64,000 nt of DNA from Gammaproteobacteria bacterium (lineage in GTDB: Bacteria; Pseudomonadota; Gammaproteobacteria; Natronospirales; REEB76). The notes beneath the pieces are model-generated. The model saw nothing but the letters and a program-made list of their open reading frames with translations, had not been told where the DNA came from and ran no database searches. Both the position numbers and the translations under genes were made by a program. Positions 26,606-64,000 of the stretch are shown here, one piece after another (the stretch's first letter is position 1; every line of letters begins with the position of its first letter). Location: the NCBI GenBank assembly GCA_036383255.1, contig DASVOS010000018.1:281432-345431 (forward strand), in the 5' to 3' direction.

Positions 26606-28005
26606 GCGTGAGCCCTGGCCGCGGGAGCGCCCATCTTATCAATGAACGCCAGGAGCTCATCGGTGCGGGCCTGCATCAGTGCCGCGTCGCCACGGGACTC
26701 CACGTTGAGCCGCAGGACCGGTTCGGTGTTGGACTTGCGCAAGTTGAAGCGCCAGTCCTTGTATTCCAGGCTGAGACCGTCCACCTGGTCCATGTGGGTC
26801 GCGGCGGGCTGGTACTTGGCTTCCACCGCCGCGATCACCCGGTCCGGGTCCGCCACCACCCGGTTGATCTCGCCGCTCACCGGGAACGCAGCCTGCTGCG
26901 ACTCGACGAGCTGCTTCAGGCTCTGGCCGGTGCGGCTCACGAGCTCCGCCACCAGCAGCCAGGGGATCATGCCGCTGTCGCAGTAGCGGAAGTCGCGGAA
27001 GTAGTGGTGGGCGCTCATCTCGCCGCCGTAGAGCGCATCCTCGCGGCGCATGCGCTCCTTGATGAAGGCGTGGCCGGTCTTGCTCAGCACCGGCAGCCCC
27101 CCGGCGGCCTTCACCGTCTCGAGGGTGGACCACGTCAGGCGCGGGTCATGCACGATCTTCGCGCCCGGGTGGCTCGCCAGCAGCGTGCGCGCCAGGAGCC
27201 CCACCAGGTAGTAGCCTTCCACGAAGCCGCCGTCGCCGTCGAAGAAGAAGCAGCGGTCGAAGTCCCCATCCCAGGCGATCCCCATGTCGGCCTTGTGTGT
27301 GCGCACCGCTTCGGCGGTGACGGCGCGGTTCTCCGGCAACAGGGGGTTGGGGATGCCGTTGGGGAAATTCCCGTCGGGTTCATGCTGCAGCTTCACGAAC
27401 TTGAACGGCAGCTCGGGCTCCAGCACGTCGATGACGGGACCCGCGCAGCCGTTGCCCGCATTGGTGACGATAGTGAGGGGCTTGAGCGCCCCCACGTCCA
27501 AGTATCCCAGCAGGTGGCGCACATAGTCGCGCTTGAGATCCAGAGTCTCGCAGCGGCCGCGCTTATGGGGTGTCTTCCATTCGGGCTGCGCCGCCACCCG
27601 CGCCTTGATCTCGAACAGGCCGCTGTCTCCGCTCACCGGGCGCGAGTCCTCGCGCACCAGTTTCATGCCGTTGTACCCCTGCGGGTTGTGGCTGGCGGTG
27701 ACCATGATGCCGCCGCCGAGGTTGCGGCTGAAGGTGGCGTGATATACCTGCTCGGTCCCGCACAAGCCGATGTCGAGCACATCGGCACCGGCGTCCTGCA
27801 CGCCGCGCGCCACGGCGGCGGCGAGTTCGGGGCTGGAGAGGCGCACGTCACGGCCCACCGCCACGCGCTTTGGGCCCGTGAGCTCGACGAAGGCGCGGCC
27901 GATGGCATAGGCGATGTCCGCGTCCAGTTCTTCGGGGACGCGGCCGCGGATGTCGTAGGCCTTGAAGGCGGCGCCCAGGCGGGCGGCCAGGTCGGTGGCT
28001 GTCAT
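26602..28005 (-). CDS. algC: Phosphomannomutase/phosphoglucomutase (AlgC/ManB type)
   Basis: An alpha-D-phosphohexomutase of 467 aa that interconverts Man-6-P/Man-1-P and usually also Glc-6-P/Glc-1-P. The phosphoserine loop is [13 protein letters not shown], the metal loop is [15 protein letters not shown], the sugar loop is [10 protein letters not shown], and the phosphate-binding loop [14 protein letters not shown] is close to the C terminus. Dual specificity of the AlgC group would supply Man-1-P for manC and Glc-1-P for rfbA. The ATG lies inside a TATATATG tract with no strong ribosome-binding site. The 80-base gap upstream holds a perfect TATAAT hexamer (28062-28067). Confidence 0.94.
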
Positions 28006-28085: not shown

Positions 28086-29978
28086 TCACGACTTTACCAG
28101 GCGCAAGGCGACTCGGCCCGTGCCCTGTTCCCCGCTCTCGGCCTGGGGCGTGAACTCCGGCACCAGGGCGCGCAGCTGCACCTTGGCCCGCTCCGGGTCC
28201 GCCGCCACCGCCTGCAGGCTGTCGATGCCCGCATTCAGCGCGTCGAGCTGGGCCGGCACCGCGTTGGCCAGCAGCAGCTTGGGATGGGTGGTGCCCTTGA
28301 GCTCCTCGCGGGTGTAGAAGAGCTCCTCATGCATCTTCTCGCCGGGCCTAAGGCCCGTGTACACGATCTGGATGTCCTGGTGGGGCCGCAGGCCCGAGAG
28401 CTGGATCAGCTTCTCAGCCAGGTCACGGATGCGTACCGGCTCACCCATGTCCAGCACGAAGATCTCGCCGCCGCGGCCGATGGCGCCCGCCTGCATGATG
28501 AGGCTGGCGGCCTCGTGGATGGTCATGAAGTAGCGGGTGATGTCCGGGTCGGTGACGGTGACCGGACCGCCGGCGGCGATCTGCCGCTCGAACAGCGGCA
28601 CCACCGAGCCGTTGGAAGCCAGCACGTTGCCGAACCGGGTGGTGACGAAATGGGTGCCGGCGTCGCGGTTGAGGGCCTGGCAATAGAGCTCGGCCACGCG
28701 CTTGGTGGTGCCCATCACGTTGGTGGGGTTCACCGTCTTGTCGGTGGAGATCAGCACGAACTTGTCCACGCCGTGGCGCAGCGCCGCATCGGCGATGACG
28801 CGGGTGCCGAAGATGTTGTTGCGGATGCCCTCCGCGACGTTCTCCTCCACGATCGGCACATGCTTGTAGGCGGCGGCGTGGAAGATGATCTCGGGCTTGA
28901 CCTGGGCGAACAGCGTCTCTACCGCGGTCTCGTCCTGGATGTTGCCGAGCGCGCTGGTGAACACCAGCGAGGGCGCGGTGGCGGCCAGCTCCTGGTCGAT
29001 GCTGTAGAGGTTGTATTCGCTGTTGTCCATCACCACCAGCAGCGCCGGATCGTGGCGGCTGATCTGGCGGCACAGCTCGGCGCCGATGGAGCCGCCGCCG
29101 CCCGTCACCAGCACGCGCTTGCCGCGCAGGAAGTCGGAGATGGCGCGCGAGTCCAGCACCACCGGGTCGCGGCCGAGCAGGTCCTCCACCGTGACGGGGC
29201 GCAGGCGCGAGACCTCGACCCGGCCGTCGGCGAGTTCCGTGAGCGAGGGCAGCGTGCGGCAGGGCACATGCACCTCGTTGCACATCTGCACCACCCGGTC
29301 CATGGTCTTGCGCGAGGCCGAGGGCATGGCGATGAGCACGATGTTCGCGTCATAGGCGCGCACCAGGCGCGCGATGTCGTCGAGGCGGCCGCGCACCCGC
29401 ACGCCCTGCACCTCGTGGCCCTGCTTCTCGGCGGCGTCGTCCACCAGCGCCACCGGCAGGAACGGCCCATGGCGGCGCAGGTCGCGGATCAGGAGCTCGC
29501 CGGCGCGGCCGGCACCGACGATGATGGCGCGCGCGGTGCTCTCGTCGCCGAAGGTCATCCAGCGGTCCTTGAGCACGCGGTACAGCATGCGGCTGCTGCC
29601 GAGGCCGATCGCGAGCAGGATCGGGTACAGCAACAGCACCGAGCGCGGTACGCCCTGCAGGCGGCCGAACAGGAACGCCGCCAGCACGGTGGCGAGGGCG
29701 CCCAGCACCGTGGCCTTGACGATGCGCATCAGGTCGGGGATCGAGGCGTAGCGCCAGATGCCGCGGTAGCAGCCGAACATCCACAGCGTGAGTGCGTGCG
29801 CCGGCAGTGCCATGCAGGTGATGAGCAGCATGCCGCCGAAATAGATGTGCGGGATCGGAGTGAGGTTGAAGCGCACCCAGTAGGCGAGCAGCACCGCGAC
29901 CGGGATCCACAGCAGATCGTGGAGGAACACGGTCCACCGGCTGCGCAACAGCAACCACCCGTCTCGTCTGGAGCCCAT
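28086..29978 (-). CDS. Membrane-anchored nucleotide-sugar 4,6-dehydratase (WbpM/PglF/CapD family)
   Basis: A 630-aa protein with four N-terminal membrane segments, a first Rossmann-like domain (IIVGAGRAGELL) and a C-terminal extended-SDR domain (VLVTGGGGSIGAELCRQI). The active-site run STDKTVNPTNVMGTTKR has Met where SDRs normally carry Tyr, which is the known Ser-Met-Lys arrangement of this family. These enzymes convert UDP-GlcNAc to UDP-4-keto-6-deoxy-GlcNAc, the precursor of QuiNAc, FucNAc or bacillosamine. An upstream in-frame ATG (30020) overlaps the wbpL-like gene. I prefer ATG 29978 because AGAGGA lies ten bases before it. The wbpV-position SDR, wbpL-like and wbpM-like genes lie in the same order as in Pseudomonas B-band LPS loci. 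Confidence 0.92.
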   Translation of the reverse strand: MGSRRDGWLLLRSRWTVFLHDLLWIPVAVLLAYWVRFNLTPIPHIYFGGMLLITCMALPAHALTLWMFGCYRGIWRYASIPDLMRIVKATVLGALATVLAAFLFGRLQGVPRSVLLLYPILLAIGLGSSRMLYRVLKDRWMTFGDESTARAIIVGAGRAGELLIRDLRRHGPFLPVALVDDAAEKQGHEVQGVRVRGRLDDIARLVRAYDANIVLIAMPSASRKTMDRVVQMCNEVHVPCRTLPSLTELADGRVEVSRLRPVTVEDLLGRDPVVLDSRAISDFLRGKRVLVTGGGGSIGAELCRQISRHDPALLVVMDNSEYNLYSIDQELAATAPSLVFTSALGNIQDETAVETLFAQVKPEIIFHAAAYKHVPIVEENVAEGIRNNIFGTRVIADAALRHGVDKFVLISTDKTVNPTNVMGTTKRVAELYCQALNRDAGTHFVTTRFGNVLASNGSVVPLFERQIAAGGPVTVTDPDITRYFMTIHEAASLIMQAGAIGRGGEIFVLDMGEPVRIRDLAEKLIQLSGLRPHQDIQIVYTGLRPGEKMHEELFYTREELKGTTHPKLLLANAVPAQLDALNAGIDSLQAVAADPERAKVQLRALVPEFTPQAESGEQGTGRVALRLVKS

Positions 29979-29994
29979 CTGGATCGATTCCTCT

Positions 29995-31017
29995 TTAAGT
30001 CGGCACGCGTCGGCACTCAAGCGTATTAACGTACGCGATGAGCGCCAGGTAGACCGCCGCCGCCCACCCCAACAGGAGTCCCTGAACTCCTGGTTCAGTG
30101 AAGCAAAAGCCGGCTACGGCTAGCAAGCTACATTTTAACATAAGGACGTATTCCCAGAGTACCGCCCGGCGGTGGCTCCAGCCCAGTCCGACCAGACGCT
30201 GATAGAAGTGCTCCCGGTGGGCTTGCCAGGGCCGTTGGCCATGCACGGCACGACGTATCACCGTCCAAGTGGCATCCACCACGAAGGGCGAGAACACCAA
30301 TAGCCCCAGCCAGAGGGGGAACAGGTCTTGGCGCTCCGCCCAAAGAAGAAACAGAGCCACCAGCAGGCCGAGGCTTCCCGAGCCCACGTCCCCCATGAAG
30401 AGGCGTGCCGGGGGGAAGTTGAAGGGCAGGAAGCCCCCCGCTGCTGCTGCTGCCAACAACGCCACGCCGGCGAACACAGGCGCATGGGCCAAGCAGCCCA
30501 ACAGCGCAAAGGTGCCGAAGCCGATGACGGCCATTCCCCCGGCAAAGCCGTCCATCCCGTCCATGAAGTTATATAAGTTGATCAACCAGACGGTCAGCAG
30601 CAGGCTGAATGCCATGAGCACTCCATGGGGCGCATGCCACTCCCATCCCGGCAGGAGATGCAGGGATCCGAGCGCATACCCGCCCCAGTCCACCAATCCC
30701 AGAGCCGCAAGCACATGCACCAGGAGACGTAGCCAGGCCGGCAGCCGCCAGACATCATCTGCGAAGGAGACGGCAGCCACCATCAACAGCGGCACCGCCA
30801 CCCAGCCCAGGCCGGGCACATGCCACCCGGTGGTGAGCAGACCCACGCCGAGACCCGCCAGGATCGCGAGGCCGCCGGAGCGCGGCGTCGCGCCGGAATG
30901 GAGCGAACGTGCGTTGGGCAAGTCCAGGAGCGCGAAGCGGCCGCGGTAGCGGCTCAGGAAACCTGCGAGTGCCGCGCTCATCGCAGACGCGGCGAGGACC
31001 GCAAAGAGCAGGCGCAT
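29995..31017 (-). CDS. Polyprenyl-phosphate HexNAc-1-phosphate transferase (WbpL/WecA family)
   Basis: A 340-aa integral membrane enzyme with about ten hydrophobic segments that starts glycan assembly by moving a sugar-1-phosphate onto undecaprenyl phosphate. Conserved aspartates are in SFADDVWRLP, LYNFMDGMDGFAGG and LFMGDVGSGSLG. The cytoplasmic His motif is HREHFYQRLVGLGWSHR. WbpL-type enzymes accept UDP-FucNAc or UDP-QuiNAc, which fits the adjacent dehydratase. The ATG at 31017 overlaps the SDR stop by one base. The gene, above all its 3' half (29995-30600), is visibly less GC-rich than its neighbours and uses codons such as TTA and TAT, hinting at a different history. Confidence 0.92.
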   Translation of the reverse strand: MRLLFAVLAASAMSAALAGFLSRYRGRFALLDLPNARSLHSGATPRSGGLAILAGLGVGLLTTGWHVPGLGWVAVPLLMVAAVSFADDVWRLPAWLRLLVHVLAALGLVDWGGYALGSLHLLPGWEWHAPHGVLMAFSLLLTVWLINLYNFMDGMDGFAGGMAVIGFGTFALLGCLAHAPVFAGVALLAAAAAGGFLPFNFPPARLFMGDVGSGSLGLLVALFLLWAERQDLFPLWLGLLVFSPFVVDATWTVIRRAVHGQRPWQAHREHFYQRLVGLGWSHRRAVLWEYVLMLKCSLLAVAGFCFTEPGVQGLLLGWAAAVYLALIAYVNTLECRRVPT

Positions 31018-31856
31018 CACGGTGCCGGCCCCGGCGTGAACGGCCGCGGCCGGATGCCGAGCGCGTGCTCCGCGGCGGCGCAATCGAACACCATGTCCCG
31101 GTTCATGCGCTCCGCCACCTCCGGCGTGAGAGCGCGGTAACGCGGCAAGAGGCGCGCGGCGGCGATGGCCGCGCGGTAAAGGAAGACCGGCACCGGCAGG
31201 ATGCGCGGCTCGCGTCCCAATGCCCGGAAGATGCGTTCCAGCATGGCGCGGTAGCTCAGGGTCTCGCCGCCGGCGATCTCGTAGGCCGCCGACTGCGGCA
31301 GCGTGAGCGCCGCCACGCAGGCGGCGGCGAGATCGTCCGCGTGCAGCGGCTGGCGCATGCCTCGCCCCGGCCAGGCCAGCGGGAAGAAGCCGATGCGGCG
31401 GATGAGCGCGGCGATGCGCGCCACGTTCTTGTCGCGCCGGCCGTCGTAGACGAGCGTGGGCCGCAGCAGCGTGTAGACCACGCCGCGGGTGCTGCACGAA
31501 TCGATCATCCCCTGCTCCGCTTCCCGCTGGTGGCGCACCAGCTCGCGTTCTCGGTGCGAGGCCGAATCCACCTTGGTGTAGACGCTGGTGGTGCCGATGG
31601 CCACCACCCGGCGCAGGCTCGCGGGCGCGCCTCGCAGCAACCGCGGCAGGAGCGGCAGGGGCGCCAGGTGGATGAGTGCCTGGGTGTCGGCGAGCGCCGC
31701 GCTCCATGCTTCATCTCTGGCCACGTCCACCTGTCGCCATGCGCTGTCAGGATGGGAACGGCGGCTCAGCACCATGACCTCGTGGCCGGCGCGGGCGAGG
31801 CGCGGCAGGAGGTAATCTCCCACCACGCTGCTGCCGCCGGTCACCAGCACGCGCAT
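31017..31856 (-). CDS. Atypical NAD(P)-dependent epimerase/reductase (SDR family), wbpV position
   Basis: A 279-aa Rossmann protein with the dinucleotide-binding start MRVLVTGGSSVVGDYLLPRL. Typical later elements are LLRPTLVYDGRRDKNVARIA and QPLHADDLAAACVAAL. Its place before the WbpL-like and WbpM-like genes suggests it reduces the 4-keto-6-deoxy-HexNAc nucleotide to its QuiNAc or FucNAc form. However, the catalytic YxxxK motif of extended SDRs is not where expected: the region after TTSVYTK reads ERELVRHQREAEQGM, with no Tyr/Lys pair. It may therefore belong to the atypical SDR group and have another role. The ATG lies four bases after the GT2 stop. Confidence 0.75.
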   Translation of the reverse strand: MRVLVTGGSSVVGDYLLPRLARAGHEVMVLSRRSHPDSAWRQVDVARDEAWSAALADTQALIHLAPLPLLPRLLRGAPASLRRVVAIGTTSVYTKVDSASHRERELVRHQREAEQGMIDSCSTRGVVYTLLRPTLVYDGRRDKNVARIAALIRRIGFFPLAWPGRGMRQPLHADDLAAACVAALTLPQSAAYEIAGGETLSYRAMLERIFRALGREPRILPVPVFLYRAAIAAARLLPRYRALTPEVAERMNRDMVFDCAAAEHALGIRPRPFTPGPAP

Positions 31857-31860
31857 GGAC

Positions 31861-32730
31861 TCAACGCCGCCGCAGCCGGACGATGGGCGCGAGCAGCAGG
31901 AAGCGTGACCAGATGCCCGCCCACACCAGCACCGTGAGCCAGGCTGGGCTCGCGGCACGCTGGAACTTGGAGAAGTAGCGCCACATGCCCCGGTGCTTGT
32001 GCCAGAGCACGAACACCGGCCGGCCGCGGCTGGAGGCGCCCTGCACGTGGCTCACGCTCACGGCCGGCACGAACAGCACGCCTGCCCCGGCCTGCTGCAC
32101 GCGCTTGCACAGGTCGAGGTCCTCGCAGTGCAGGAAATAGCCCTCGTCCCAGCCGCCCAGCCGTTCGAAGAGGTCACGGCGTATCAGGAGGCAGGCGCCG
32201 GAGATGGCTTCCACCGGCGCGGGGCCATCAGGCAGCGGCGTGCCCGTGAGGTCGAAGCCGCTCACCTTGCCGTCGGTGCCCGGGCCATCGAGTTTGAGCA
32301 CCCGCATCAGCGCGCGGCGCGTGTCCGGCAGGTGGCGGCGGCAGCCGCGCTGCTCGCTGCCATCACTGTTTAGCACCAGCGGGCCCAGCATGCCCGCCTG
32401 GGGACGCGCCTCAAGCACCGCCACCAGGCGCTCGAGCGCTCCCGCCGGCATGCGGCAGTCGGGGTTGATGAACAGGAGGTAGCGGCCGGTGGCGGAAGCG
32501 GCGCCCTGGTTGCAGGCGGCGCCGAAGCCGCGGTTCACGGGATTGCGCGCCAGCACCACGCCGGGGTGCGCGCCGGATTCCAGGAACGCGAGGCTGCCGT
32601 CCTCGGAGGCGTTGTCCACCACCACGGTGCGGACCAGGCCCTGCTGGCCGGCGAGGGATTCCACCAGCCCGCGCAGCAGCGGGCCGGCGTTGTAGTTGAC
32701 GGTGACCGCCGTGACCGCCGCGGCGGACAC
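31861..32730 (-). CDS. Family 2 glycosyltransferase (rhamnosyltransferase-like)
   Basis: A 289-aa GT-A fold enzyme. The N terminus AVTVNYNAGPLLRGLVESL and VVVDNASEDGSL form the nucleotide-binding half. LLFINPDCRMP holds the metal-binding acidic motif (a DxD variant, PDC). GACLLIRRDLFERLGGWDEGYFLHCEDLDLC contains the ED acceptor-side motif, here described by its parts. This pattern is typical of WbbL-like rhamnosyltransferases, which suits the dTDP-rhamnose genes in the locus. A hydrophobic C-terminal stretch may associate it with the membrane. The start codon is GTG at 32730, one base after the GSCFA gene. Confidence 0.88.
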   Translation of the reverse strand: MSAAAVTAVTVNYNAGPLLRGLVESLAGQQGLVRTVVVDNASEDGSLAFLESGAHPGVVLARNPVNRGFGAACNQGAASATGRYLLFINPDCRMPAGALERLVAVLEARPQAGMLGPLVLNSDGSEQRGCRRHLPDTRRALMRVLKLDGPGTDGKVSGFDLTGTPLPDGPAPVEAISGACLLIRRDLFERLGGWDEGYFLHCEDLDLCKRVQQAGAGVLFVPAVSVSHVQGASSRGRPVFVLWHKHRGMWRYFSKFQRAASPAWLTVLVWAGIWSRFLLLAPIVRLRRR

Positions 32731-33818: not shown

Positions 33819-36800
33819 CTAGCCCGCCGCCTTCAGTTCCTGCTGCCGGTCGATGGAGGTGATCACCTCCGCGAGGCGCCCGCGGATCACCTCCGGTGAA
33901 TAGCGTTCCCGCACCACCCGCCGGCCGGCCTGCGACATGCGCTGCCACAGCTCAGGATCGGTGTAAGCGCGCACTACCGCGTCGGCGAAGCTCTGCGGGT
34001 CGTCGCCGATCAGCACCTCGCGCCCGTCCTCCACATACATGCCCTCGGCGGCGATGGAGGTGGCCACCACCGGCAGGCCGTAGCTGAAACTGGTGCCGAG
34101 CTTGCCCTTGATGCCGGCACCGAAGCGCAACGGCGCCACCATCAGGCGGCAGGAATTGAAGTAAGGGGTGATGTCCTTCTGGAACCCCAGCACCTGGATG
34201 TGGTCGCAGGCGAGGTCGCGTATCTCCGCCGGCGGCCGCGAGCCCAGGATCAGGAACCTGAGGTCCGGGATGCGGCTCCTCAGCGCGGGCAGCACCTCGC
34301 GGCAGAAGTACAGCACCGCCTCCACGTTGGGGTTGTGCTGGTAGCCGCCGATGAACAGGATGTCGCGGCGCGCCTCGAAGCCGGGGCCCTGAGGCTCCTC
34401 CGGGATCACCAGCTGCACCACGTGCACGTTCGCGCGCGGCGCCTCCTGGGCCAGGAGCTCCTTCTCCACCGGGCTCACCACGATGCTGGCGTCGGACTCG
34501 CGGATGAGCTTGAGCTCGTCGGCGCGGGTGCGCTCGGCGCGGTCGGCGATGAGCGGGTTGTTCTCCACCGCCGCCTGGCGCCGCTCACGCAGGTAGTGCA
34601 GGTCCACAGTGTCGTAGATGACGCGCAGGCCCGGCGCGGCCTTCTTGAGGTGGTCGAGGTGGCGGATCGCCACGTAGGGCCGGCACAGCATGGCGAGCTG
34701 GAACTCGCCGGCGCGGGCCTTGATGAACTGATCCACCGACACGCAGTGCGGCTCGTACACGCATTCGATGCCGAGCCGCTGCAGGTCGCGGGTGTATTCG
34801 CCGTCGTGCAGCAGGTTGTCCGGCACGAAGGTGACCTTGTAGCCCAGTGACTGCAGCAGCTTCAGGTGGTAGAACTTGAGCAGCGAGCCCGCATCGTGGT
34901 CCGGGCGCGGCGTGTTGGCGTCGATCACCAGCAGGCGCTTGGTGACGCTGCGGTCCTTCTCCAGCAGCGGCAGCATGCCGTTAGGACGGTGCGAGGCCAG
35001 CACGTCCTTCCAGCGCTCGTGCAGCTTCTTGAGGTTCACCACCTGGTACTTCTTCACGCCGGAGCCGAGGTCGGTGCCGGAGCTCACGCCCTCGTAGTGA
35101 ACGATGGTGGAGAGCGGCTGGTACAGGACCCTGAGGCCGCGCTTGCGCACCTGGAAAGCGAGGTCGGTGTCCTCGCAATAAGCGGGCGCGTAGTGGCTGT
35201 CGAAGCCGCCGAGTTCGCGGAACAGCGCGAGGGGCACCATGATGCTGGCGCCGGAGCAATAGTCCACGTCCCGCAGGTAGTTGTACTCGGGACGGTCCGG
35301 GTCGTCGAAGCGTCCGTAGTTCCAGGCAGAGCCATCGCGCCAGACGATGCCGCCGGCCTCCTGCAGGCGCCCGTCCGGATACACGAGCTTGGAGCCGACG
35401 AGACCCGCCTCGGACACCTGGTCGAAGGTCGCGCGCAGCTCGTCCAGCCAACCCGGCAGCACCTGCACGTCGTTGTTCAGGAAGTACACATAGCGGCCGC
35501 GCGAGGCAGTGGCGCCGGCGTTGCAGGCGCCGATGAAGCCGAGGTTCTGCTCGTTCTTGACCACCCGCACGCCCTTGCAGCGGGCCAGCACCGCCGGGGT
35601 CTCGTCCTTCGAGCAGTCGTCCACCACGATCACCTCGAAGGGCGTCTTGGCGCCGACCGCGGCGATGGAGTTCAGGCAGTGCAGCGTGTGCGCCACGTTG
35701 TTGTAGACGGGGATCACCACCGAGACCTCAGGTGTCTCCGAGGTGGCGAGCACCGGACCCTCGCCCGCCAGCACCGCGGCCGGGCCCTTAGGGTCCACCT
35801 TCTCGCCACGCACCGCGCGGGTCTTGTAGTCGGCGCTGCCCGGGGCGCCGGCGCCGAAGAGCCGGCCCAGGCTGCGGCGCAGGACCATGCGCAGGCGCAT
35901 AGGCATGGGGATGCGGTAGTACACGTCGCGGGCCACCAGCCTCAACACCCCTGCGTTCATGAAGCGCAGCTTGGGGATGGAGCGCAACATCACCATCAGG
36001 CCGCGCAGCGGCGCGGTAACACGCCAGGAGGTCGAGTGATAGAGCGCCTGCAACTCGCGCTTGAGATGGCCCATCTCCCTGAGTTCGCCCCGCTGCCATT
36101 CCAGCTCTTGGGCCCGGGCCACGGCGAGGCCGGCGTGATGGCCGCGTTCCTCGGCGATGTGCTTGATCTCCTGGTCGCGGGCCTGGATCAGACGGTCCTT
36201 GTCGGCGAGCGCCGCATCGCGCGCGTGCAACTCGGCGTAGAGCGAACCGAGGATGTGGTCGAAGCCGGCGCTCAGGCCCGCCAGCTCCTTGCCGAGCCGG
36301 TCGAGCTGGGCCGGGTCGGTGCCGCCGGTCAAGGTCTTGTAGGTATCGCGGGTGAGCCGCCCGAGCTCGCCGCCCGGCATCAGCTCCGGTTTCTGGTGGT
36401 GGCGCAGTTCCTTGTGCACGAAGGCGGACATGCCCTGCTCAAGCGTGCGCTCGTCCGCCGGCCATGCGAGGCCCAGCTTCTCCCAGGCGGGCTTGAGCGC
36501 GCCGCGCCAGTCGGCCAGCACCGAGGCATAGTCCACCACCGCCCGCGGGCCGCCGCGGCTCGCCGCCTCCGCGTCCATGAGGTAGCGCAAGGTCAGCAGC
36601 GCCGACTTCTCCGGCGCGAAGTCGTTGCGGCTCTTGAGGGAAGCGATGATCTCAGCGGGGTCGCGGGTCGCGATCAGGTAGCAGGGCTGCCAGCCGAGCT
36701 CACGCAGGAGGTCCTGCCATAGGGGCAGCATGCGGCACAGGCGCGGGTCCTTGACGCAGGCGAGTTCCGCCGTACCGAAGTCGCGCTTGAGCACCGCCTT

Positions 36801-37061
36801 CAAGGCATCGCGTTCCGGGCGGATGGTCTCGTAGTTCCACCATTTGTCCGGCAGTGCGCGTACGTCGTCCCAGGCGTAACCGAGCTTGTCGAGGACGGCA
36901 TCGTGGATGCGCACGATCTCGTCGTGCTCCCAGAAACCCATCACGTTGTCCTGGCCCGCCGCCATCATCCGGTCGCCGAGCTCGGCACCCAGCAGGCGGC
37001 AGCTGCCTGCCAGCACCGAGGTGCCGCTGCGGTGCATGCCAAGGATCATCAGCATCTTCAT
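33819..37061 (-). CDS. Three-domain fusion: sulfotransferase-like + GT2 + GT4 glycosyltransferase
   Basis: A 1080-aa cytoplasmic polypeptide. Residues 1-250 form a sulfotransferase-like P-loop module ([10 protein letters not shown] at 8-17, the PAPS 5'-phosphosulfate loop; later [12 protein letters not shown] and [11 protein letters not shown]). About 280-345 is a charged, probably coiled-coil linker. Residues 445-690 are a family 2 glycosyltransferase ([45 protein letters not shown]). From about 710 to 1070 a group 1 (GT4) glycosyltransferase follows ([56 protein letters not shown]). The ATG overlaps the upstream sulfotransferase stop by four bases. It likely adds at least two sugars and may couple this to sulfation. 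The substrates cannot be read. Confidence 0.9.
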
Positions 37062-38005
37062 ACGGAACGCCCCCACAGCGCGGACAGGCGCGCCCCCAGG
37101 CCCCGGCGGATGCGCGCCACCGGCGGCTCTTGCAAGCGGCGGCAGTGCTCCTCGAACAGGCGCTGCATCTCGGTGCGGGCGCCGGCGTCGCCCTGTTCCA
37201 GGCTCTCGGGTGCCGCCAGCATGTCGCGGTAGAGCTGCTCGGCCTCGCGGGCGGCGGTCGTGCTGGTGTCCACCGGCACCGAGTCCTTTTCCACCTCGGA
37301 GCTGTTGATCTTGTTGTCGAGCGGCTTCAGGCAATCGGCGGAGTAAGTCTCACCCAGGAACGCCAGTACCCGGCGGAACGCCTGCTCCGGCTGGCCGGTG
37401 AAGTCTTCGTAGCGCACGCGCAGCATGCGCGCACGGCCGAGCGCGCGCTCGCCCAGCCAGGCGGCGCGGGTGAGCCTCAACCAGGCCTGGTAGGCCTCGT
37501 CGTGACCATAGTCGCGCGCGCCGGTGCGGGAGAACTTCATGAGCGAGCGCGCCACGTCGTGCGGGTTGCGCAGGAGGTGGACGAAGCGCGCACCGGGGAA
37601 CAGGCGCGATAGCGGGTATATATAGTGCGAGTTCTCGGGGGTCGCGTCGGCCCAGCGGCGCTTGGGGTCGTCCGGCGAGCGGCGCCGGTGCATCTCACCC
37701 TTCACCTTGCGCTCGGTGTGCTCGATGAGCCGCTGGTTGGCGGCACCCATGAGGTGCTGCAGGCCCTCGCCGAACAGGCGGTAGAACTCGTCCTCGTCCA
37801 TGCCGATCTGGCCGAGGTGCGAGAAGCCGCCGTTCACGGTGGCGAGGCGATAGAGGTTGTCCAGGTCCACACCCAGGCGTGCCAGCCAGTTGGTCTCCGG
37901 CAGGTTCACGATGTTGGGGTGCTGGCCCAGGCACCAGCAGAAGATGCTGGTACCGGAGCGGTAGGAACCCACCACGAACACCGGGCTGTGGCTATGGTCC
38001 GACAT
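37058..38005 (-). CDS. Sulfotransferase family protein
   Basis: A 315-aa cytosolic-type carbohydrate sulfotransferase. The 5'-phosphosulfate loop is [12 protein letters not shown] near residue 10, with YRSGTS as the core. The 3'-phosphate motif is [20 protein letters not shown] (conserved Arg and Ser). [15 protein letters not shown] is the following RYEDL-like motif. The start ATG at 38005 was chosen because the P-loop then lies at the expected distance; the frame continues upstream without family features. It overlaps the fusion gene by ATGA, and both probably come from one transcript. A TAT-ATA-TAC codon run at 37617-37624 is unusual for this genome. Confidence 0.88.
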
Positions 38006-38094: not shown

Positions 38095-39255
38095 TCAGCC
38101 TGGCGGCGAAAATGCCCCGGGCTCCGCGTCCCGGGTGTAGCCCATGGCGGCGAGCTCGGTGCCGGCGATTCGCCACACCAGCGCCCGGTCGCGGGCGGTG
38201 AGGCTCTCGCGCCATTCCCCCGCCACGCCCTTGCGCATCACATCCTGCCCGGCCACGCCCCGTGGCCGCCCGCTCTGGGCCTCGAAGGAGCTCGCCCTGG
38301 CCACCGCTGCTACGGTTGTTGGGGAGGCGTCGGCGCCGAGCGTCTGCAGGAGGCGCCGGAACTCGCCGTCGAAGTCCGCCAGGAGGTCTTCGTAGCGCAG
38401 CACCGTGAGTTCGCCCCGCTCCGCCGCCTTGAGTACCTTCCGCACCCGGTCCGCCCACACCGACAGGGAGCGGCCGAGGCGCCAATCCTCGCCGTAACCG
38501 GCCAGGCGGCGCAGTGCCGTGACGCCGCGGATACCCGCCTCGCGGGCCAGCGCCACCGGTTTCATGAAGCTCACGTGGCTGTGCTGCCATGCCATGCGCC
38601 GCTCGCGCATGAGCTGGCGATAGTGGAACGCCGATACCGCCGCATCCCGGCCGTCGCGCACGATCGCCACGCGCGGCGCCTGGGGCCGCCATTCCCTAAG
38701 CGCGTCCAGGCACAGGATCTGGTCCGCGCCCTTCAGCACCAGCCGCTGGCCCGGCTTGAAGGCCGGCGCCAGTGCCGACAGGAACCCGTCCATGGCCTGA
38801 GCCGGCGTCGAGGCCTTGCGCAGCGCCTCGAAGGCGGCGGCCAGCAGCGCCGGCGGGAAGTTGAGGAACCCGACCGGCTTGCCCTGCGAGGCCCGCTCGC
38901 CGCCGGCGGTGGAACCTTCCGTCAACATCGCCGTCAACACCCGCACCGCAACCTCGGCCGGCAGGTCGTAAAGAGACGCGACGTCGCGGTAGCTGCCATC
39001 GGGGAGATAACGATGGAATGCGCCGGGCGCCAGCTGCTCGACCCTGAGCGCACAGAATGCGCTCCGGCCGAACACGTTGGCCAACCGCTCGCGTGGCGGC
39101 AATAGGTGCCGGCCGCTACGCCCGGCCACAGACCGCAGCACGTCCAGCTCGCGCAGGGCCGAGAACTCAGGATGGGCCGCCAGCGCGGAGAGCAGCCAGC
39201 TGGTGCCGTTCTTGTAGAGGCCGACGATGAAGACCGGATCGGCTGGCCGGTTCAC
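38095..39255 (-). CDS. Sulfotransferase-like protein (paralogue of the 62797-63885 gene)
   Basis: A 386-aa P-loop protein. The first loop is FIVGLYKNGTSWLL near residue 10, and the 3'-phosphate motif is VAIVRDGRDAAVSAFHYR. LTVLRYEDLLADF and GVAGEWRESL close the domain. The same blocks occur in the gene at 62797-63885 (MYKSGTSWLL, VRDGRDAAISAVHF, LRYEDLQQDF, GITGEWREAL, both ending ELAAxGYT), so the two are paralogues. The start is GTG at 39255, which overlaps the Wzt stop as GTGA. This tight link to the ABC exporter suggests that it modifies the exported glycan. Stops 89 bases before the next sulfotransferase. Confidence 0.86.
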   Translation of the reverse strand: MNRPADPVFIVGLYKNGTSWLLSALAAHPEFSALRELDVLRSVAGRSGRHLLPPRERLANVFGRSAFCALRVEQLAPGAFHRYLPDGSYRDVASLYDLPAEVAVRVLTAMLTEGSTAGGERASQGKPVGFLNFPPALLAAAFEALRKASTPAQAMDGFLSALAPAFKPGQRLVLKGADQILCLDALREWRPQAPRVAIVRDGRDAAVSAFHYRQLMRERRMAWQHSHVSFMKPVALAREAGIRGVTALRRLAGYGEDWRLGRSLSVWADRVRKVLKAAERGELTVLRYEDLLADFDGEFRRLLQTLGADASPTTVAAVARASSFEAQSGRPRGVAGQDVMRKGVAGEWRESLTARDRALVWRIAGTELAAMGYTRDAEPGAFSPPG

Positions 39256-39965
39256 TTCCGTGGGCCGCTGGACTGCATGTTCTTCAGGTAACGCTCCACC
39301 ACGGCCTTGGGCTCGCCGATCTCCACGGTGGCACCCTTCTCTACCCACACCACCCGGTCGCACAGCTCCAGCACCGTGTCGGTCTGATGGGTCACGATCA
39401 CCACGGTCTTATCGGAGGCGATCTTCTGGCGCATGACGGCTGAGGATTTCTCCTTGAAGCTGGCGTCACCGGTGCCCAGCACCTCGTCGATGAGCAGCAC
39501 GTCCGGGTCGGCGCGGGAGGCCACGGTGAAGCCGAGCCGCGCGCGCATGCCGGAGGAGTAGGTGCGCACCGGCTCGTCGATGAACTGCTGGAGCTCGGCG
39601 AAGCGCACGATCTCATCCATGCTCTCCTCCACCTGGCGGCGGGTCATGCCCAGCAGGATACCGGACAGCACTGCGTTCTGGCGGCCGGTGAGGGAGGGGA
39701 TGAAGCCCGCCTGCAGCGCCAGCAGCGAGACGCGCTCGGTCCTGCGCACGATGCAGCCATTGTCCGGAGCCAGGATGCCGGCCAGCAGGCGCAGCAGCGT
39801 GCTCTTGCCGGCGCCGTTGCGGCCTATCACGCCCAGCGTCTCGCCGTGCCGAAGGTCGAAGCTCACGTCGTGCAGGGCCCAGAACGCCGAGGAGCGCAGG
39901 AAACCCGCCTTCCGCCGGTAGCGCACGCCCACGTTCTTGAGTTCGATGATGGTGTCGCCGCTCAT
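39252..39965 (-). CDS. wzt: Polysaccharide ABC exporter, ATP-binding subunit (Wzt/TagH type, short form)
   Basis: A 237-aa ATPase of the ABC-2 export class. Walker A is GVIGRNGAGKST, the signature is TYSSGMRARL, Walker B is DVLLIDEVLGTGDASF, and the switch His is in VIVTHQTD. The N terminus (NVGVRYRRKAGFLRSSAFWALHDVSF) is typical for Wzt/TagH/KpsT-like exporters. It ends soon after the ATPase fold and has no C-terminal carbohydrate-binding domain as in the O9a-type Wzt, which recognises a terminal modification. Thus export may not depend on chain-end capping, or another protein recognises it. It follows the permease by seven bases and couples to a sulfotransferase by GTGA. Confidence 0.93.
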   Translation of the reverse strand: MSGDTIIELKNVGVRYRRKAGFLRSSAFWALHDVSFDLRHGETLGVIGRNGAGKSTLLRLLAGILAPDNGCIVRRTERVSLLALQAGFIPSLTGRQNAVLSGILLGMTRRQVEESMDEIVRFAELQQFIDEPVRTYSSGMRARLGFTVASRADPDVLLIDEVLGTGDASFKEKSSAVMRQKIASDKTVVIVTHQTDTVLELCDRVVWVEKGATVEIGEPKAVVERYLKNMQSSGPRK

Positions 39966-39972
39966 GCGCCCC

Positions 39973-40737
39973 TCAGACGATCATGAGTTTTGGATAGGAA
40001 CGGTCGAAGCGCTTCAGCAGCCATAACGCCAGGGCATAGATCATGCAGGAAGCCAATAACACGGCGGCGAGCGCGCTCCAATCCGGCCAGACCTTGGACA
40101 CCAGGACGTCGTGGAAACCCGCGATGACCGGCACCATGGGGTTGAGCCGCAGCACCTGCGCCACGCTGGGGGGCAGGCGGCTGATGTCGTTGATGACGCC
40201 CGAGATGAACAACATGACGACCAGGCCGTTGCTGATGATGAGGTCCAGGTCGGGGAGCAGCGGCACCAGCGCGGCCGCGAGGGAAGCCAGCGCCAGGGTC
40301 AGCATCAGCTCCACCACCACCAGGAACGGCAACGCGAGCCAGGACGTCCCGATGCCGTTGGTATATGCAGCCAGGCACAGCAACAGAGCCAGGATGATGA
40401 GAAACTTCATGCCGTTGGTGACCAGCACCATGCTCGGCAGGATGTACTTGGGCAGGTAGACCTGCTGGATCAAGCCGCTGTTGGCCTGGATGATCCCGCC
40501 GCCGTTCTGCACCGTGCTGGAGAAGAGCTTCCACGGCACCAGTCCGCTCAGCAGGAACAGCAGCCGGTGCTCGCCGCCCTGGCGCAACCCCAGGCCGAAG
40601 GCCAGGTAGAAGGCCATCATGTAGAGCAGCGGCTCCAGCACCCACCACGCGAAACCCACGTAGCCGCGGGCCGCGTCCGCATGCAGGTCGGCCAGTCCCC
40701 TGTACCAGATGAGTTCGGCGTAACGCGGCCTGCGCAT
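39973..40737 (-). CDS. wzm: Polysaccharide ABC exporter, permease subunit (Wzm, ABC-2 type)
   Basis: A 254-aa inner-membrane protein with six hydrophobic segments. The N-terminal amphipathic interface WYRGLADLHADAARGYVGFAWWVLEPLLYM is the classic ABC-2 polysaccharide permease entry, given here as the stretch before segment 1. Later features are LSGLVPWKLFSSTVQNGG and the helix before the last segments, RLNPMVPVIAGFHDVL. With Wzt it would flip undecaprenyl-linked O-antigen or capsule across the inner membrane. The gap upstream is 54 bases and contains a perfect TATAAT, so wzm may start its own transcript. Confidence 0.93.
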   Translation of the reverse strand: MRRPRYAELIWYRGLADLHADAARGYVGFAWWVLEPLLYMMAFYLAFGLGLRQGGEHRLLFLLSGLVPWKLFSSTVQNGGGIIQANSGLIQQVYLPKYILPSMVLVTNGMKFLIILALLLCLAAYTNGIGTSWLALPFLVVVELMLTLALASLAAALVPLLPDLDLIISNGLVVMLFISGVINDISRLPPSVAQVLRLNPMVPVIAGFHDVLVSKVWPDWSALAAVLLASCMIYALALWLLKRFDRSYPKLMIV

Positions 40738-40790: not shown

Positions 40791-40796
40791 ATTATA
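40791..40796 (-). promoter_or_regulatory. Possible -10 element upstream of wzm-wzt
   Basis: The minus strand reads TATAAT and overlaps the TAA stop of the phosphoglycerol-transferase-like gene, 53 bases before the wzm ATG. No convincing -35 is found 16-18 bases upstream (GGTAGG/AGGTAG region). Between it and wzm lies a ten-base palindrome around GGATCC. It would allow separate control of the exporter. Confidence 0.4.
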
Positions 40797-42966
40797 ACCC
40801 GACGTGGAACCGTCCTACCTCGATACGGCGGGCATCGCCGTTGCAGCTCACGCTCAGGGCGTGGTCGCCCGGCAGGAACAGCGGCAGCCGCCCGGTCATC
40901 ACGGCGTCGAGCATGTCGTCGCCCTTGTCCTCGATCCTGAGCTCCTCGAAACCGAGCCAGGCGTGCACCCGCCGCGCGCCGCCGCGGTACCTGATGTGGA
41001 ACACCGGGCTGCCATCCTGCTGGGGGTTGAAGCCGTGGCCCCAGCGCGTGGACCGGGGAGTCCACTCCACCACCTGCATGTCGCAGGGCTGGCTCGGATT
41101 GGCTTCCGAGAGGTAGGGAAGACCCAGAGACGGGATCTCCAGCGCCCGCTCCGGGTCACCGTAGAGCATGGCCGTGGTGTAGCCGGCGCCGCCCACGAGG
41201 TCGGTGCGGAACACCTGCATGTCCGCGTGCCAGCGGTTCACCTGGCGGCAGGTCTCGCTGCGGGTCTCTGGCGCACAGAACCCCGGGGTACCCCGGTCCG
41301 GCACCACCAGCAGCCGGCCGTTGCGCATGCGCGGGTGCAGCCCTGGCGGCGGCGTGAACACGTCCAGCTCCGTGGGTCCCTGCACGTGCAGCAGTCCGAG
41401 CAGCAGGCGCGGCAGCTCGTACAGCGAGATATGCCCGAGCTTGAGGGGGCCGTTGCGCCCGTCGATCACCAGCAGCGGCGTGCTCTGGTGCACCTCCAGC
41501 ATGGCCGGCGTGAACTCCTCCTCCCTGAGGCCCGTGAGCCCCGAGCGGTGGAACGGCGCGAAGCCGTCGCCGAGCACCGGCAGATGATCGCCGAAGGCCA
41601 CGATCAGCGCGTCCGGGTCGCGCGCCCTCAGGCGCTGGACGTAGGCGGCGAGTTCGGCGGTGTCGTAGTACACGCTGTCGGCATAGCCATCGATGAGCCT
41701 GTCCTTCGAACTGCCATGGATCCGGGGCGGACGCTTGCGCGCGTCCAGCTCGAACGGGTAATGGCCGCTCACGGTGGCGATGTAGGTGAAGCCCGGCCCC
41801 GGCGCCGGCTGCTTGCTGGCGAGCGTCTCCCATTGCTCGAACAGCGCCTGATCGGCCATGAAGCCGCCGTTGCGGTCGTCCGGGTCGAAGTTATCGCCAT
41901 CGTAGAATCGCTGGAAGCCCACGTGGCGGAACACATGGCCGCGGTTCCACACGCCGAAGGCGTCGGGCGTCACCGCGTAGGTGTGGTAGCCCGCCTGGGC
42001 CAGGATGCGCGGCAGGCACAGGGCCGGCCGGTCGAGGCCAGTGACGAACACGATCGCGTCGTCGAAGGCGGGCATGCCGCACAGCGCCTCGAACTCCGAG
42101 TTCGCGGTGCCCCCGCCGAATACCGGCACCAGCGCCTGGCTGTGGCCGGACTGCTCGTACAGCGCCCGGAACGCCGGCGCGAACGGGTCATGGTCGAAAT
42201 GCTCGGCCTTGAGCAGCGATGCGTCCCACAGCGTCTCCATCATGAACACGTAGACGTCACGCGGCGGTCCCGCCGCCGCGGGCCGTGGCAGCGGCACCTG
42301 CAGCGGCACGTCCCGCAACGCGGCCGCCACCTCCTCCTGTCCCGGCACGCGGCCGGCCACGGCGCGGGCGCGGGCATATTCGTTGAGCAGGAACAGGTGC
42401 GGGCCGCGCTCGTAGAAGTTGTAGATCTGGCCGAACGGCGTGTAACCGTAGAAGCGGTCCATGCCGCTCGCGATCTCCGCGGGCATCAGCCGCAGGACCC
42501 CATACACCAGCAGCAGCCCCCCGAACAGCAGCACCGGCGTGCGCCGGCGCCAGCGCAGCCCCGCGAGCGCCAGCAGCAGCAGGAGCGCGAACGGCATGGC
42601 CATGAGCACGAAGCGCCAGCCCGAGACCTGTTCGAACAATACCGGCAACGCCGTCAGGTCCGCGGGCAGCACCGGTGCCGCGAAGTACTGCATCTTGTAG
42701 GCGTTGCCGAGGTACAGGAGGCCCAGCGCCAGCACTTGAACGGCCAGGAACAGCCACCAGGGCCGCAGCAGGAGATACAGCCACCAGGCCAGCAGCGTGC
42801 AGGCCGCCATCTCGGACAGGTAGCCCGAGGGGTAGAGACTCATCTGATAGAAGTTTGACAGGAGCAGGTTGAAGAACGTCAGCAGCAGCAGCGTGCTGAG
42901 AGGAGGCAACCATAGGACGCGCCAGCGGCGCGCTCGGCTGGTCGGGGCCTCAGAAGAGCCTGACAT
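40792..42966 (-). CDS. LtaS/OpgB-like membrane phosphoglycerol transferase (alkaline phosphatase superfamily), copy 2
   Basis: A 724-aa protein with about five N-terminal membrane segments (roughly residues 20-190) followed by an extracytoplasmic sulfatase-fold domain. Catalytic-type motifs are VFMMETLWD (metal-binding Glu), GGGTANSEFE with candidate nucleophile Thr287, and AFGDHLPVLG (Asp-His metal ligands). These match lipoteichoic-acid-synthase-like phosphoglycerol transferases better than true sulfatases, because no Cys/Ser formylglycine motif is seen. After about residue 570 there is an extra C-terminal region of about 150 residues (SPVFHIRYRGGARRVHAWLGFEEL, listed by its first half). 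ATG 42966 has a GGGGGA ribosome-binding site and overlaps the upstream paralogue by 17 bases. Confidence 0.87.
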   Translation of the reverse strand: MSGSSEAPTSRARRWRVLWLPPLSTLLLLTFFNLLLSNFYQMSLYPSGYLSEMAACTLLAWWLYLLLRPWWLFLAVQVLALGLLYLGNAYKMQYFAAPVLPADLTALPVLFEQVSGWRFVLMAMPFALLLLLALAGLRWRRRTPVLLFGGLLLVYGVLRLMPAEIASGMDRFYGYTPFGQIYNFYERGPHLFLLNEYARARAVAGRVPGQEEVAAALRDVPLQVPLPRPAAAGPPRDVYVFMMETLWDASLLKAEHFDHDPFAPAFRALYEQSGHSQALVPVFGGGTANSEFEALCGMPAFDDAIVFVTGLDRPALCLPRILAQAGYHTYAVTPDAFGVWNRGHVFRHVGFQRFYDGDNFDPDDRNGGFMADQALFEQWETLASKQPAPGPGFTYIATVSGHYPFELDARKRPPRIHGSSKDRLIDGYADSVYYDTAELAAYVQRLRARDPDALIVAFGDHLPVLGDGFAPFHRSGLTGLREEEFTPAMLEVHQSTPLLVIDGRNGPLKLGHISLYELPRLLLGLLHVQGPTELDVFTPPPGLHPRMRNGRLLVVPDRGTPGFCAPETRSETCRQVNRWHADMQVFRTDLVGGAGYTTAMLYGDPERALEIPSLGLPYLSEANPSQPCDMQVVEWTPRSTRWGHGFNPQQDGSPVFHIRYRGGARRVHAWLGFEELRIEDKGDDMLDAVMTGRLPLFLPGDHALSVSCNGDARRIEVGRFHVGL

Positions 42967-45094
42967 GGAAATCCCCCACCTGCACCGGCTTGTCATCGCC
43001 GTTGCATTTCAAGGTGAGGGCACGGGAACCCGGCAGGTACAGCCGCGCGCGGCCAGACAGCGTGGCCGCGATGCGATGGTCGCGGTTGATCACCTCCAAC
43101 CGGTGCGAGCCCAACCAGGCCTGCACCCGACCGGCCTCACCCGTGTACTCGATCCAAAAGGTGGAACTGCCGCCACGGTGCGGGTTGAAGATGCGTCCCA
43201 CCCGTCCCTCCCGCGGCCCCCAGGCGGTGATGGTGATGCCGCAGGGATGCACGTCCATGGGGGCGTGGTAGCTCTCACCGGTATCAGGGATCGCCAGCTG
43301 GTAGGCATCGCCATACAGCAGCGGCACCAGGTACTCGTCGCCCGAGACCATGTCGGTACGCAGGGTCTGCATGGCCCGGTACCAGGCGTCAGCCTGCTCG
43401 CAGCCCTGCTTGGGGGCATCGCTGTCACAGAAGCGCGCCTCACCCGCGTCGTCGGTGACGAGAAAGCGCCCCTCGCCGATGGGGCGCGGATGAGTATGGG
43501 CCGGCGGCGTGAACACATCCACGGCAGCAGGCCCGGAAGCGCCCAGCAGCGACAGTACCAGGTGCGGGATCTCGAACAGCGAGAGCCGGCCGAGCTTGAG
43601 CGGTCCGCGCCGGCCATCGATGACGATGAGCGGCGTGCTCTGGCGCGCGCGCATCTGCATCGGGGTGAAGCGCTCCACGTTGTGCGGGAACAGCCTGGAA
43701 GCGGTGAAATCCCTGAGCTTGTTGCCCAGCGCCGGCAGATGGTCGCCGAACACCACGATCAGCGCGTCCGGGTCCGCAGCGCGCAGCTTGGCCAGGTAGT
43801 CGGCGAGATCGCGGGAATTGTAGTACACCGCATTGGCATAGTCGGTGACGGCGTGGTTGGGAGAGCTGGCCTTGACCACCGGTGGGCGTGTCGCCGGGTC
43901 CATCTGGAACGGATAGTGGCCGCTGGTGGTGACCGTGTACACGAACCGCGGCGCGGGTTCCTTCGGCACTCGTTCCAGCATCTGGCTGAACAGCGAGGCA
44001 TCCGCCAGGAAACCACCGTTCAGGTCGTCCAGGAAGAAGCTCTCCTTGGCATAGAACCGGCTGAAGCCCAGGTAACGGTAGACGTTGTTGCGGTTCCAGG
44101 TGCCGTATTCGTCCGGCGCCACCGCCACGGTGCGGTAGCCGGCCTGGGCCAGGAGCATCGGCAGGCAGGGCATGGCATGGACCACGCTGGTCACGAAGGC
44201 GATGCCGCCCGGCGTCACCGGCGCGCCGCAAAGCTCCTCGAACTCGGAGTTCGCGGTGCCGCCGCCGAACACCGGCACCTGCGCCCAGCCGTGGCCGGCC
44301 TCGTCCCACAAGGCGCGCAGCTCCGGCGCCATGGGGTCCTGGCTGAAGTGCACCGAACTCAGCAGCATCGGATCCCAGAACGCTTCCATCAGGATCACGT
44401 ACACATCGCGCGGCTTCTCGACCTTGAGGAGCGGCAACGGCTTGTCGAAGCCACGGTCCTTGAGCGCCGCGGCCACCTCGGCGCGCGTCGGCAGCTCCCC
44501 CTGCAGCATGCGCTGGCGCGCATACTCGTTCAGGAAGTAGACGAGCGGACCGCGCGCCTGGAAGTTATTGACCTCGATGAAGGGCTTGTAGCCGAAGAAG
44601 CCGTCGAGGCTCTTGGTGAGGGGTCCTGGCAGGAACAGGAGGGCGAGCCACAGCGGCACCACGCCGACCGCCAATGCGATGGCCGCGTAGCGATCGCGGC
44701 GGATGCCCAGCAGGAATACGAGCGCCATCGCCACCAGCGGCGACACGGCCAGCACGAAGCGCCAGCCGAACAGCACGTCCAGCAGCACCGGCAGGGTATT
44801 CGCGTCGGACGGCAGGATGGGCGCAGCCAGGAGGTCGATCTTGAGGCCGTTGCCGATGTAGAGCGTCCCCATCAGCACCGTCTGCAGCAGCAGGAACGCC
44901 CATAACGGCCGCATCAGCCAGTACAGCCAGTAGCCGAGCGCGAGCTCGGCCAGCGCGTCGGCCGCGAGGCCGGACCAGGTCAGGGTGTAGCCGAAATAAC
45001 GCCGCACCACGAGGTCGTAGACGCCCATGAGCAGCAGCGTCGAGACCAGCGGGATGAGGTGGCGGAACCGGCGGTCCCGCAGCGGAATCCTCAA
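42950..45094 (-). CDS. LtaS/OpgB-like membrane phosphoglycerol transferase (alkaline phosphatase superfamily), copy 1
   Basis: A 714-aa paralogue of the next gene with the same layout: N-terminal membrane segments, then the extracytoplasmic catalytic domain (VILMEAFWD, GGGTANSEFE with Thr280, VFGDHLPALG) and the same C-terminal extension (STFWIEYTGEAGRVQAWLG). The tandem arrangement indicates duplication with divergence, so the two may act on different positions or acceptors. In other bacteria such enzymes take phosphoglycerol from phosphatidylglycerol and place it on teichoic acid or periplasmic glucans; here the acceptor is probably the locus's glycan. The start is TTG at 45094, which overlaps the rfbB stop as TTGA. 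The next ATG is internal to the first membrane helix. Confidence 0.86.
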   Translation of the reverse strand: MRIPLRDRRFRHLIPLVSTLLLMGVYDLVVRRYFGYTLTWSGLAADALAELALGYWLYWLMRPLWAFLLLQTVLMGTLYIGNGLKIDLLAAPILPSDANTLPVLLDVLFGWRFVLAVSPLVAMALVFLLGIRRDRYAAIALAVGVVPLWLALLFLPGPLTKSLDGFFGYKPFIEVNNFQARGPLVYFLNEYARQRMLQGELPTRAEVAAALKDRGFDKPLPLLKVEKPRDVYVILMEAFWDPMLLSSVHFSQDPMAPELRALWDEAGHGWAQVPVFGGGTANSEFEELCGAPVTPGGIAFVTSVVHAMPCLPMLLAQAGYRTVAVAPDEYGTWNRNNVYRYLGFSRFYAKESFFLDDLNGGFLADASLFSQMLERVPKEPAPRFVYTVTTSGHYPFQMDPATRPPVVKASSPNHAVTDYANAVYYNSRDLADYLAKLRAADPDALIVVFGDHLPALGNKLRDFTASRLFPHNVERFTPMQMRARQSTPLIVIDGRRGPLKLGRLSLFEIPHLVLSLLGASGPAAVDVFTPPAHTHPRPIGEGRFLVTDDAGEARFCDSDAPKQGCEQADAWYRAMQTLRTDMVSGDEYLVPLLYGDAYQLAIPDTGESYHAPMDVHPCGITITAWGPREGRVGRIFNPHRGGSSTFWIEYTGEAGRVQAWLGSHRLEVINRDHRIAATLSGRARLYLPGSRALTLKCNGDDKPVQVGDFHVRLF

Positions 45095-48431: not shown

Positions 48432-48463
48432 GTCCGTCCCCGTGGTGCCGGCCGCGGCGCGGC

Positions 48464-51294: not shown

Positions 51295-51319
51295 CGCTCC
51301 ACTCGGGCTAAGCTGTGAC

Positions 51320-51347
51320 GGCACGGGAGGGTCGTCCCTCCCGTGCC
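51320..51347 (-). terminator. GC-rich 12-bp hairpin between ssb and cysD
   Basis: The arms 51320-51331 and 51336-51347 pair perfectly over 12 bp around a four-base loop (TCGT on the plus strand). It lies downstream of the ssb stop and 26 bases upstream of the cysD ATG. No T-run follows, so termination would be incomplete or Rho-dependent. It may separate ssb expression from the glycan run, or act in the cysD leader. Confidence 0.5.
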
Positions 51348-54960: not shown

Positions 54961-54961
<1 letters not shown>

Positions 54962-59025: not shown

Positions 59026-59026
59026 C

Positions 59027-63885: not shown

Positions 63886-64000
63886 GGGTATGCTGGATTC
63901 CGAAGAGGCTCCGCGCATGCCTATGATAATCTGCCCGGGCTCTTTGGAGCCCAGGAGCTGTCAGCCGGCTCGATATTTAAGGATGGGAACCCGATGCCAA

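Follow-up and report, generated by a model that had tools for sequence, protein, structure and literature searches.

A recurrent sulfotransferase-GT2-GT4 fusion protein beside ABC export genes in a gammaproteobacterium and its possible part in capping glycan chains

The fusion gene and its cluster

An open reading frame encoding a protein of 1080 amino acids, in which a sulfotransferase module, a long helix, a GT2 module and a GT4 module follow one another, was identified on the minus strand of the window (the whole stretch of 64,000 nucleotides that was analysed, from a Gammaproteobacteria bacterium); its modules and neighbouring genes are listed in Table 1. An ORF check of the window placed the ATG at 37061 and the stop codon at 33819-33821, and the plus strand over 33819-37061 was found to be interrupted by stops. 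An earlier note on this DNA had described a one-frame sulfotransferase-GT2-GT4 fusion, which was confirmed with the correction that it lies on the minus strand, and the covalent tethering of a PAPS-sulfotransferase module to two glycosyltransferase modules also holds. No frameshift or stop, which the note had considered as a possible flaw, was found between the domains, and a chance, frameshift or assembly-artefact origin of the fusion was ruled out by 17 further loci that share this colinear domain order. The ATG of the fusion gene overlaps the TGA of the upstream stand-alone sulfotransferase gene (ATGA), so the two genes are probably translationally coupled. A GSCFA-family gene (32732-33793, minus strand) lies immediately downstream.

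Table 1. Features of the fusion gene and the surrounding cluster (window coordinates)
Feature	Position	Strand	Basis
Sulfotransferase-helix-GT2-GT4 fusion gene, 1080 aa	33819..37061	-	open frame; full-length homologues
PAPS sulfotransferase module, aa 1-248	36318..37061	-	family alignment, PF13469 in relatives, profile, fold model
5'-phosphosulfate loop GMHRSGTS, aa 8-15	37017..37040	-	ORF translation and family alignment
3'-phosphate site R133..S141 (R-x7-S)	36639..36665	-	97/97 invariant; aligned with SULT1A3 Arg130/Ser138
Continuous predicted helix, aa 250-341, coiled-coil-like arm	36039..36314	-	AlphaFold2 model, periodicity
GT2 module, aa 443-690, LNND and PAYCEDTD motifs	34992..35735	-	Pfam, model, motifs, structural matches
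GT4 (GT-B fold) module, aa 700-1063, EAM Glu replaced by Thr	33873..34964	-	Pfam, model, motifs, structural matches
Stand-alone sulfotransferase (PF13469), overlaps fusion start	37058..38005	-	protein scan, family profile
Second stand-alone sulfotransferase (PF00685/PF13469)	38095..39273	-	protein scan
Wzt-like ABC ATPase, 237 aa, without Wzt_C	39252..39965	-	Pfam: ABC_tran only
Wzm/KpsM-like ABC permease	39973..40737	-	
LtaS-like membrane sulfatase-fold enzyme 1 (possible phosphoglycerol transferase)	40792..42996	-	
LtaS-like membrane sulfatase-fold enzyme 2	42950..45094	-	
rmlB, rmlD, rmlC, rmlA, dTDP-rhamnose synthesis	45091..48521	-	
cysN-cysC fusion and cysD, APS/PAPS synthesis	48464..51324	-	
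manC and PMM/PGM, GDP-mannose synthesis	25172..28005	-	
CapD-like, WecA-like PNPT, epimerase and GT2 genes	28086..32730	-	

The product of the cluster is predicted to be a sulfated polymer containing rhamnose and mannose and perhaps bearing phosphoglycerol. The two LtaS-like paralogues are in tandem, overlap and are 46% identical; an LtaS-like homologue was also observed near the methyltransferase-GT2-GT4 gene of another locus (L140). No Wzx gene was found in the cluster, the genome's single PF13440 match being located on another contig. The cysNC gene of the window is the sole strong APS-kinase match in the genome, and an APS kinase or cysD was present in 11 of the 96 loci whose flanks were examined; linkage to PAPS genes was therefore dropped as a gauge of sulfate demand, and for the same reasons it does not separate a sulfate cap from a sulfated repeat.

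Five more sulfotransferase genes are present in the window, at 54961-55692, 55698-56447, 59009-59938 and 60712-61434 (+) and at 62797-63918 (-), the last of which was identified by genome search and the other four by protein scan; they adjoin genes for a DegT aminotransferase, a hexapeptide transferase and a UDP-sugar dehydrogenase. Genome-wide, 15 matches to PF13469 were found over four contigs.

Modules of the fusion protein

No Pfam match was obtained for amino acids 1-440 of the fusion protein, the N-terminal module remaining blank even at E 1, and a search of the window module alone against the PDB gave no useful match. These blank searches are what speaks for the module being a P-loop protein of a kind other than a sulfotransferase. 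As the window module itself has no Pfam match, relatives were needed for the 'PAPS-type' call that the earlier note had made on its loop (GMHRSGTS, the start of [10 protein letters not shown] at amino acids 8-17). Among 97 aligned N-terminal modules, with relatives drawn from other genomes, residues G8, R11, S12, G13, T14, S15, N39, G42, K104, R133 and S141 are invariant and E45 is conserved in 96. The invariance of the loop residues is partly by construction, since the pattern [VI][LI]GMHRSGT served to retrieve most of the loci, while the conservation of N39, G42, E45, K104, R133 and S141 is independent of that pattern. PF13469 was matched by 66 of the 97 relatives (the window sequence not being one of the 66) and PF00685 by 8. 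When searched against the PDB, the family profile identified SULT1A3/1A1 and the tyrosylprotein sulfotransferases (TPSTs), and R133 and S141 aligned with Arg130 and Ser138 of SULT1A3, the residues that in the SULT family are known to bind the 3'-phosphate. The profile also matched the neighbouring stand-alone sulfotransferase (96% probability).

The N-terminal module was modelled by AlphaFold2 with a pLDDT of 94.6, and the best solved folds found by Foldseek were TPST2 and TPST1 with PAP, the curacin and olefin-synthase sulfotransferase domains and mycobacterial STF9; all 17 matches at E <= 1e-3 were sulfotransferases. The structure prediction suggested in the earlier note thus bears out its reading of the loop, and the 3'-phosphate Arg and Ser, whose loss it had named as fatal to that reading, are both retained. 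By family, residues and fold the N-terminal module is clearly a PAPS sulfotransferase, in all probability an active one, and it is very improbable that it is some other P-loop protein given the PF13469 matches of its relatives, the SULT and TPST structures found by the profile, the uniformly sulfotransferase folds and the invariance of R133 and S141. By analogy with the TPSTs, E45 may be the catalytic base. The module shares its PAPS-binding fold and motifs with the TPSTs and other Sulfotransfer_3 (PF13469) enzymes but differs from them in its low identity (~16%), its fusion to glycosyltransferases, its presumed glycan acceptor and its position below Pfam detection. The GMHRSGTS sulfotransferase family was present in 42 of 398 sampled Pseudomonadota genomes.

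The full-length protein was modelled with a mean pLDDT of 87.8, the sulfotransferase (1-248) being followed by a helix (250-341), a low-confidence helical stretch (342-442), which could be flexible, and the high-confidence GT2 and then GT4 modules. The linker, called coiled-coil-like in the earlier note, was modelled as a single helix of 92 residues at moderate pLDDT (about 45-73), which if straight would measure ~14 nm (by arithmetic, at 0.15 nm per residue). A periodicity of 3.5 residues was detected in it (shuffle P = 0.0096), while a stricter windowed test gave P = 0.06; among the long rods of the family, the stricter test gave P < 0.05 in 26 of 56.

The GT2 module, described earlier as full, is indeed a complete GT-A fold with the nucleotide/metal-site and ED motifs present ([15 protein letters not shown]); structural matches agree, and PF00535 was matched over a core of amino acids 447-570 (97.6 bits, E 1e-27). 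The same description holds in part for GT4, in that its GT-B fold is complete, matching MshA and sucrose-phosphate synthase, and PF13692 was matched over amino acids 899-1035 (87 bits, E 1.6e-24), but the usual donor-site Glu of the EAM motif is Thr in the window protein. In relatives this position is occupied by E, D, Q, N, M, L, T or another residue. Because of this replacement and variability, activity of the GT4 module is judged from its sequence to be likely but not certain. Members of the clade that has Wzt_C transporters retain the Glu; in the window protein's own clade the position is variable.

Recurrence, module exchange and linkage to export genes

The search for the same architecture in other genomes, as the earlier note proposed, identified 17 ST-GT2-GT4 (sulfotransferase-GT2-GT4) proteins besides that of the window, in gammaproteobacteria (including Rhodanobacteraceae, Lysobacteraceae and Thiocapsa) and also in Planctomycetota; the fusion is therefore recurrent and not a one-off. 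Homologous GT2-GT4 proteins in plasmid records are mostly annotated merely as 'glycosyltransferase'. The GT2-GT4 core was also found with other N-termini, namely a methyltransferase (L139, L140), an extra GT4 (L124, L125) or a PIG-L deacetylase (L135), and with nothing recognised at the N-terminus (L127-L129). On a tree of 29 GT2-GT4 cores, in which gain and loss are not distinguished, at least 6 changes of the sulfotransferase label fall on branches with good support, and methyltransferase forms are nested among the sulfotransferase forms. The N-terminal module has thus been exchanged repeatedly on the core, and a single uninterrupted fusion history is ruled out by these changes. Beside the window protein on the tree (84/81 support) is L077, in which the sulfotransferase and the core are encoded by separate genes in a Wzm/Wzt locus.

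In raw counts, which include kin, Wzm and/or Wzt genes were linked to the fused ST-GT2-GT4 gene in 10 of the 14 loci with enough flank, to methyltransferase-GT2-GT4 in 2/2 and to cores that were undecorated or bore GT4 or PIG-L in 0/7. A Wzt with Wzt_C (Pfam) was identified in 14 loci of the sulfotransferase family (L016, L047, L048, L134 and ten more), in several of which the sulfotransferase gene directly follows wzt; capping with sulfate is the simplest interpretation of these relatives. In other loci Wzt_C was absent, among them the window (by Pfam) and its core relatives L126 and L130. Proteins consisting of a sulfotransferase and a long Pro-free rod, without GT modules, were found near Wzt with Wzt_C in Desulfonema, Paenibacillus and Dyella (L023:6992-8527, L024:6980-8710 and L031:6965-8296). 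The seven members linked to Wzx are short and rodless and all belong to one clade; the association of rod length with ABC rather than Wzx export, although strong in a raw Fisher test, was therefore rejected as independent evidence, as it rests on one clade change.

Sulfation at the chain end or within the repeats

From these observations we infer the activity, donors and acceptor of the fusion protein, its chain-end specificity and any role in length control. The GT2 and GT4 modules would form a two-module polymerase, which probably adds two sugars in turn, for instance rhamnose and mannose, and would carry the PAPS-dependent sulfotransferase on a long helical arm. The protein would work in the cytoplasm on a lipid-linked chain, ahead of export by Wzm/Wzt, with the arm keeping the sulfotransferase off the polymerase so that it would sulfate the nascent chain end once the chain was long enough to reach; such end-capping would be akin to the methyl, phosphomethyl or Kdo terminators of other ABC-exported O-antigens. 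We rate this overall explanation as having an even chance of being correct, the terminator-like mode being the most likely.

PAPS is cytoplasmic, so sulfation would precede export in either mode, independently of the fusion, and there is good support for sulfation in the cytoplasm, ahead of export. The earlier note had proposed sulfation during chain growth rather than after export; the timing relative to export stands, while 'during growth' is one possibility only, the long helix separating the sulfotransferase from the polymerase. Given this separation, and given that relatives next to transporters with a Wzt CBM resemble a terminator-ruler-polymerase arrangement, sulfation of the chain end fits at least as well.

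In that published arrangement, terminator enzymes are held on coiled-coil rulers distant from the polymerase GT modules and the cap is read by the CBM of Wzt, with terminator and polymerase in one chain in WbbB and O7 ORF6 and in two in WbdD/WbdA (PMC11231755). WbbB (Klebsiella pneumoniae O12) and ORF6 (K. pneumoniae O7) resemble the window protein in their N-terminal modifier, long helical or coiled-coil spacer and two C-terminal GTs, and in the position of their genes beside wzm/wzt, but they add a Kdo or methylphosphate cap and are paired with a Wzt with a CBM. In WbdD/WbdA (Escherichia coli O9a / K. pneumoniae O3) too, a coiled-coil rod bears the catalytic head that works with a multi-GT polymerase, although these are two separate proteins and the head is a kinase-methyltransferase; the rod proteins of L023, L024 and L031 have this WbdD-like layout.

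ABC-export linkage, module swapping, the Wzt_C relatives and the published ruler plan together suggest, by analogy, sulfation of the chain end; against this are the CBM-less Wzt, the two extra sulfotransferases of the operon, the moderate confidence of the helix and a GT4 without its usual Glu. All characterised terminated O-antigen systems have Wzt_C (PMC11231755), and the window protein was not filed as a terminator since its Wzt lacks this part of the defining set. It may still cap chains, as the K. pneumoniae O1 transporter without a CBM exports chains both with and without terminal pyruvate (PMC11231755). The main rival, that the tethered sulfotransferase modifies one sugar per repeat during GT2-GT4 extension ahead of CBM-less ABC export, draws on the same absence of a CBM, on cysNC and cysD in the cluster and on the capsule of Cobetia marina KMM 1449, whose known product contains Rha2S and Man6PGro, its repeat rhamnose thus being sulfated, and whose cluster has rml, GDP-mannose, ABC export, cysNC/cysD, sulfotransferase and LtaS-like genes as in the window (PMC11766843). 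That capsule differs in being of Kps group III with Kdo priming, and no ST-GT fusion is mentioned in the parts of the paper available (PMC11766843). The two further sulfotransferases of the operon are compatible with sulfated repeats but could also supply them already by themselves, and the ~90-residue helix between sulfotransferase and GTs, together with the methyltransferases borne by the same core in Wzt_C systems, argues against this rival, which we regard as a real but lesser possibility. Sulfation of the chain end rather than of the repeat unit is favoured, though unproven, and we place it just short of even.

It is less probable still that the tether is a loose one, in which an active sulfotransferase has a different acceptor (e.g. 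a sugar of the core, of the linker or of the lipid-linked primer) and the fusion serves co-expression only. The free exchange of modules on the core, the common stand-alone homologues of the sulfotransferase and the possibly flexible stretch 342-442 would allow for this; the repeated fusion of a sulfotransferase to the same core, and the L077 pair in one Wzm/Wzt locus, point instead to a substrate shared by the sulfotransferase and the GTs. We consider this rival improbable, and it is probable that the sulfotransferase modifies what its own GTs have made, ahead of export.

No published precedent for a sulfate chain terminator was found in the literature searched, which did not extend to the Mann 2019 census; a 2023 paper citing Mann et al. 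2019 gives methyl, methylphosphate, Kdo and candidate pyruvate as terminators and contains no 'sulf-' word. As a tentative generalisation, which may well not hold, rod-bearing GMHRSGTS sulfotransferases, alone or GT-fused, could be widespread sulfate-capping terminators of ABC-exported glycans, with the cap read by the CBM of Wzt in many species and the window protein a CBM-less variant. If so, sulfate would join those four as a new chemistry of chain termination, Wzt domains binding sulfated ends would be predicted, and the fusion would offer a one-protein system in which changes to the rod can probe length control. The enzymes responsible for sulfating long surface glycans in bacteria are poorly assigned, and in either mode of sulfation this sulfotransferase family provides a genome-searchable handle on them.
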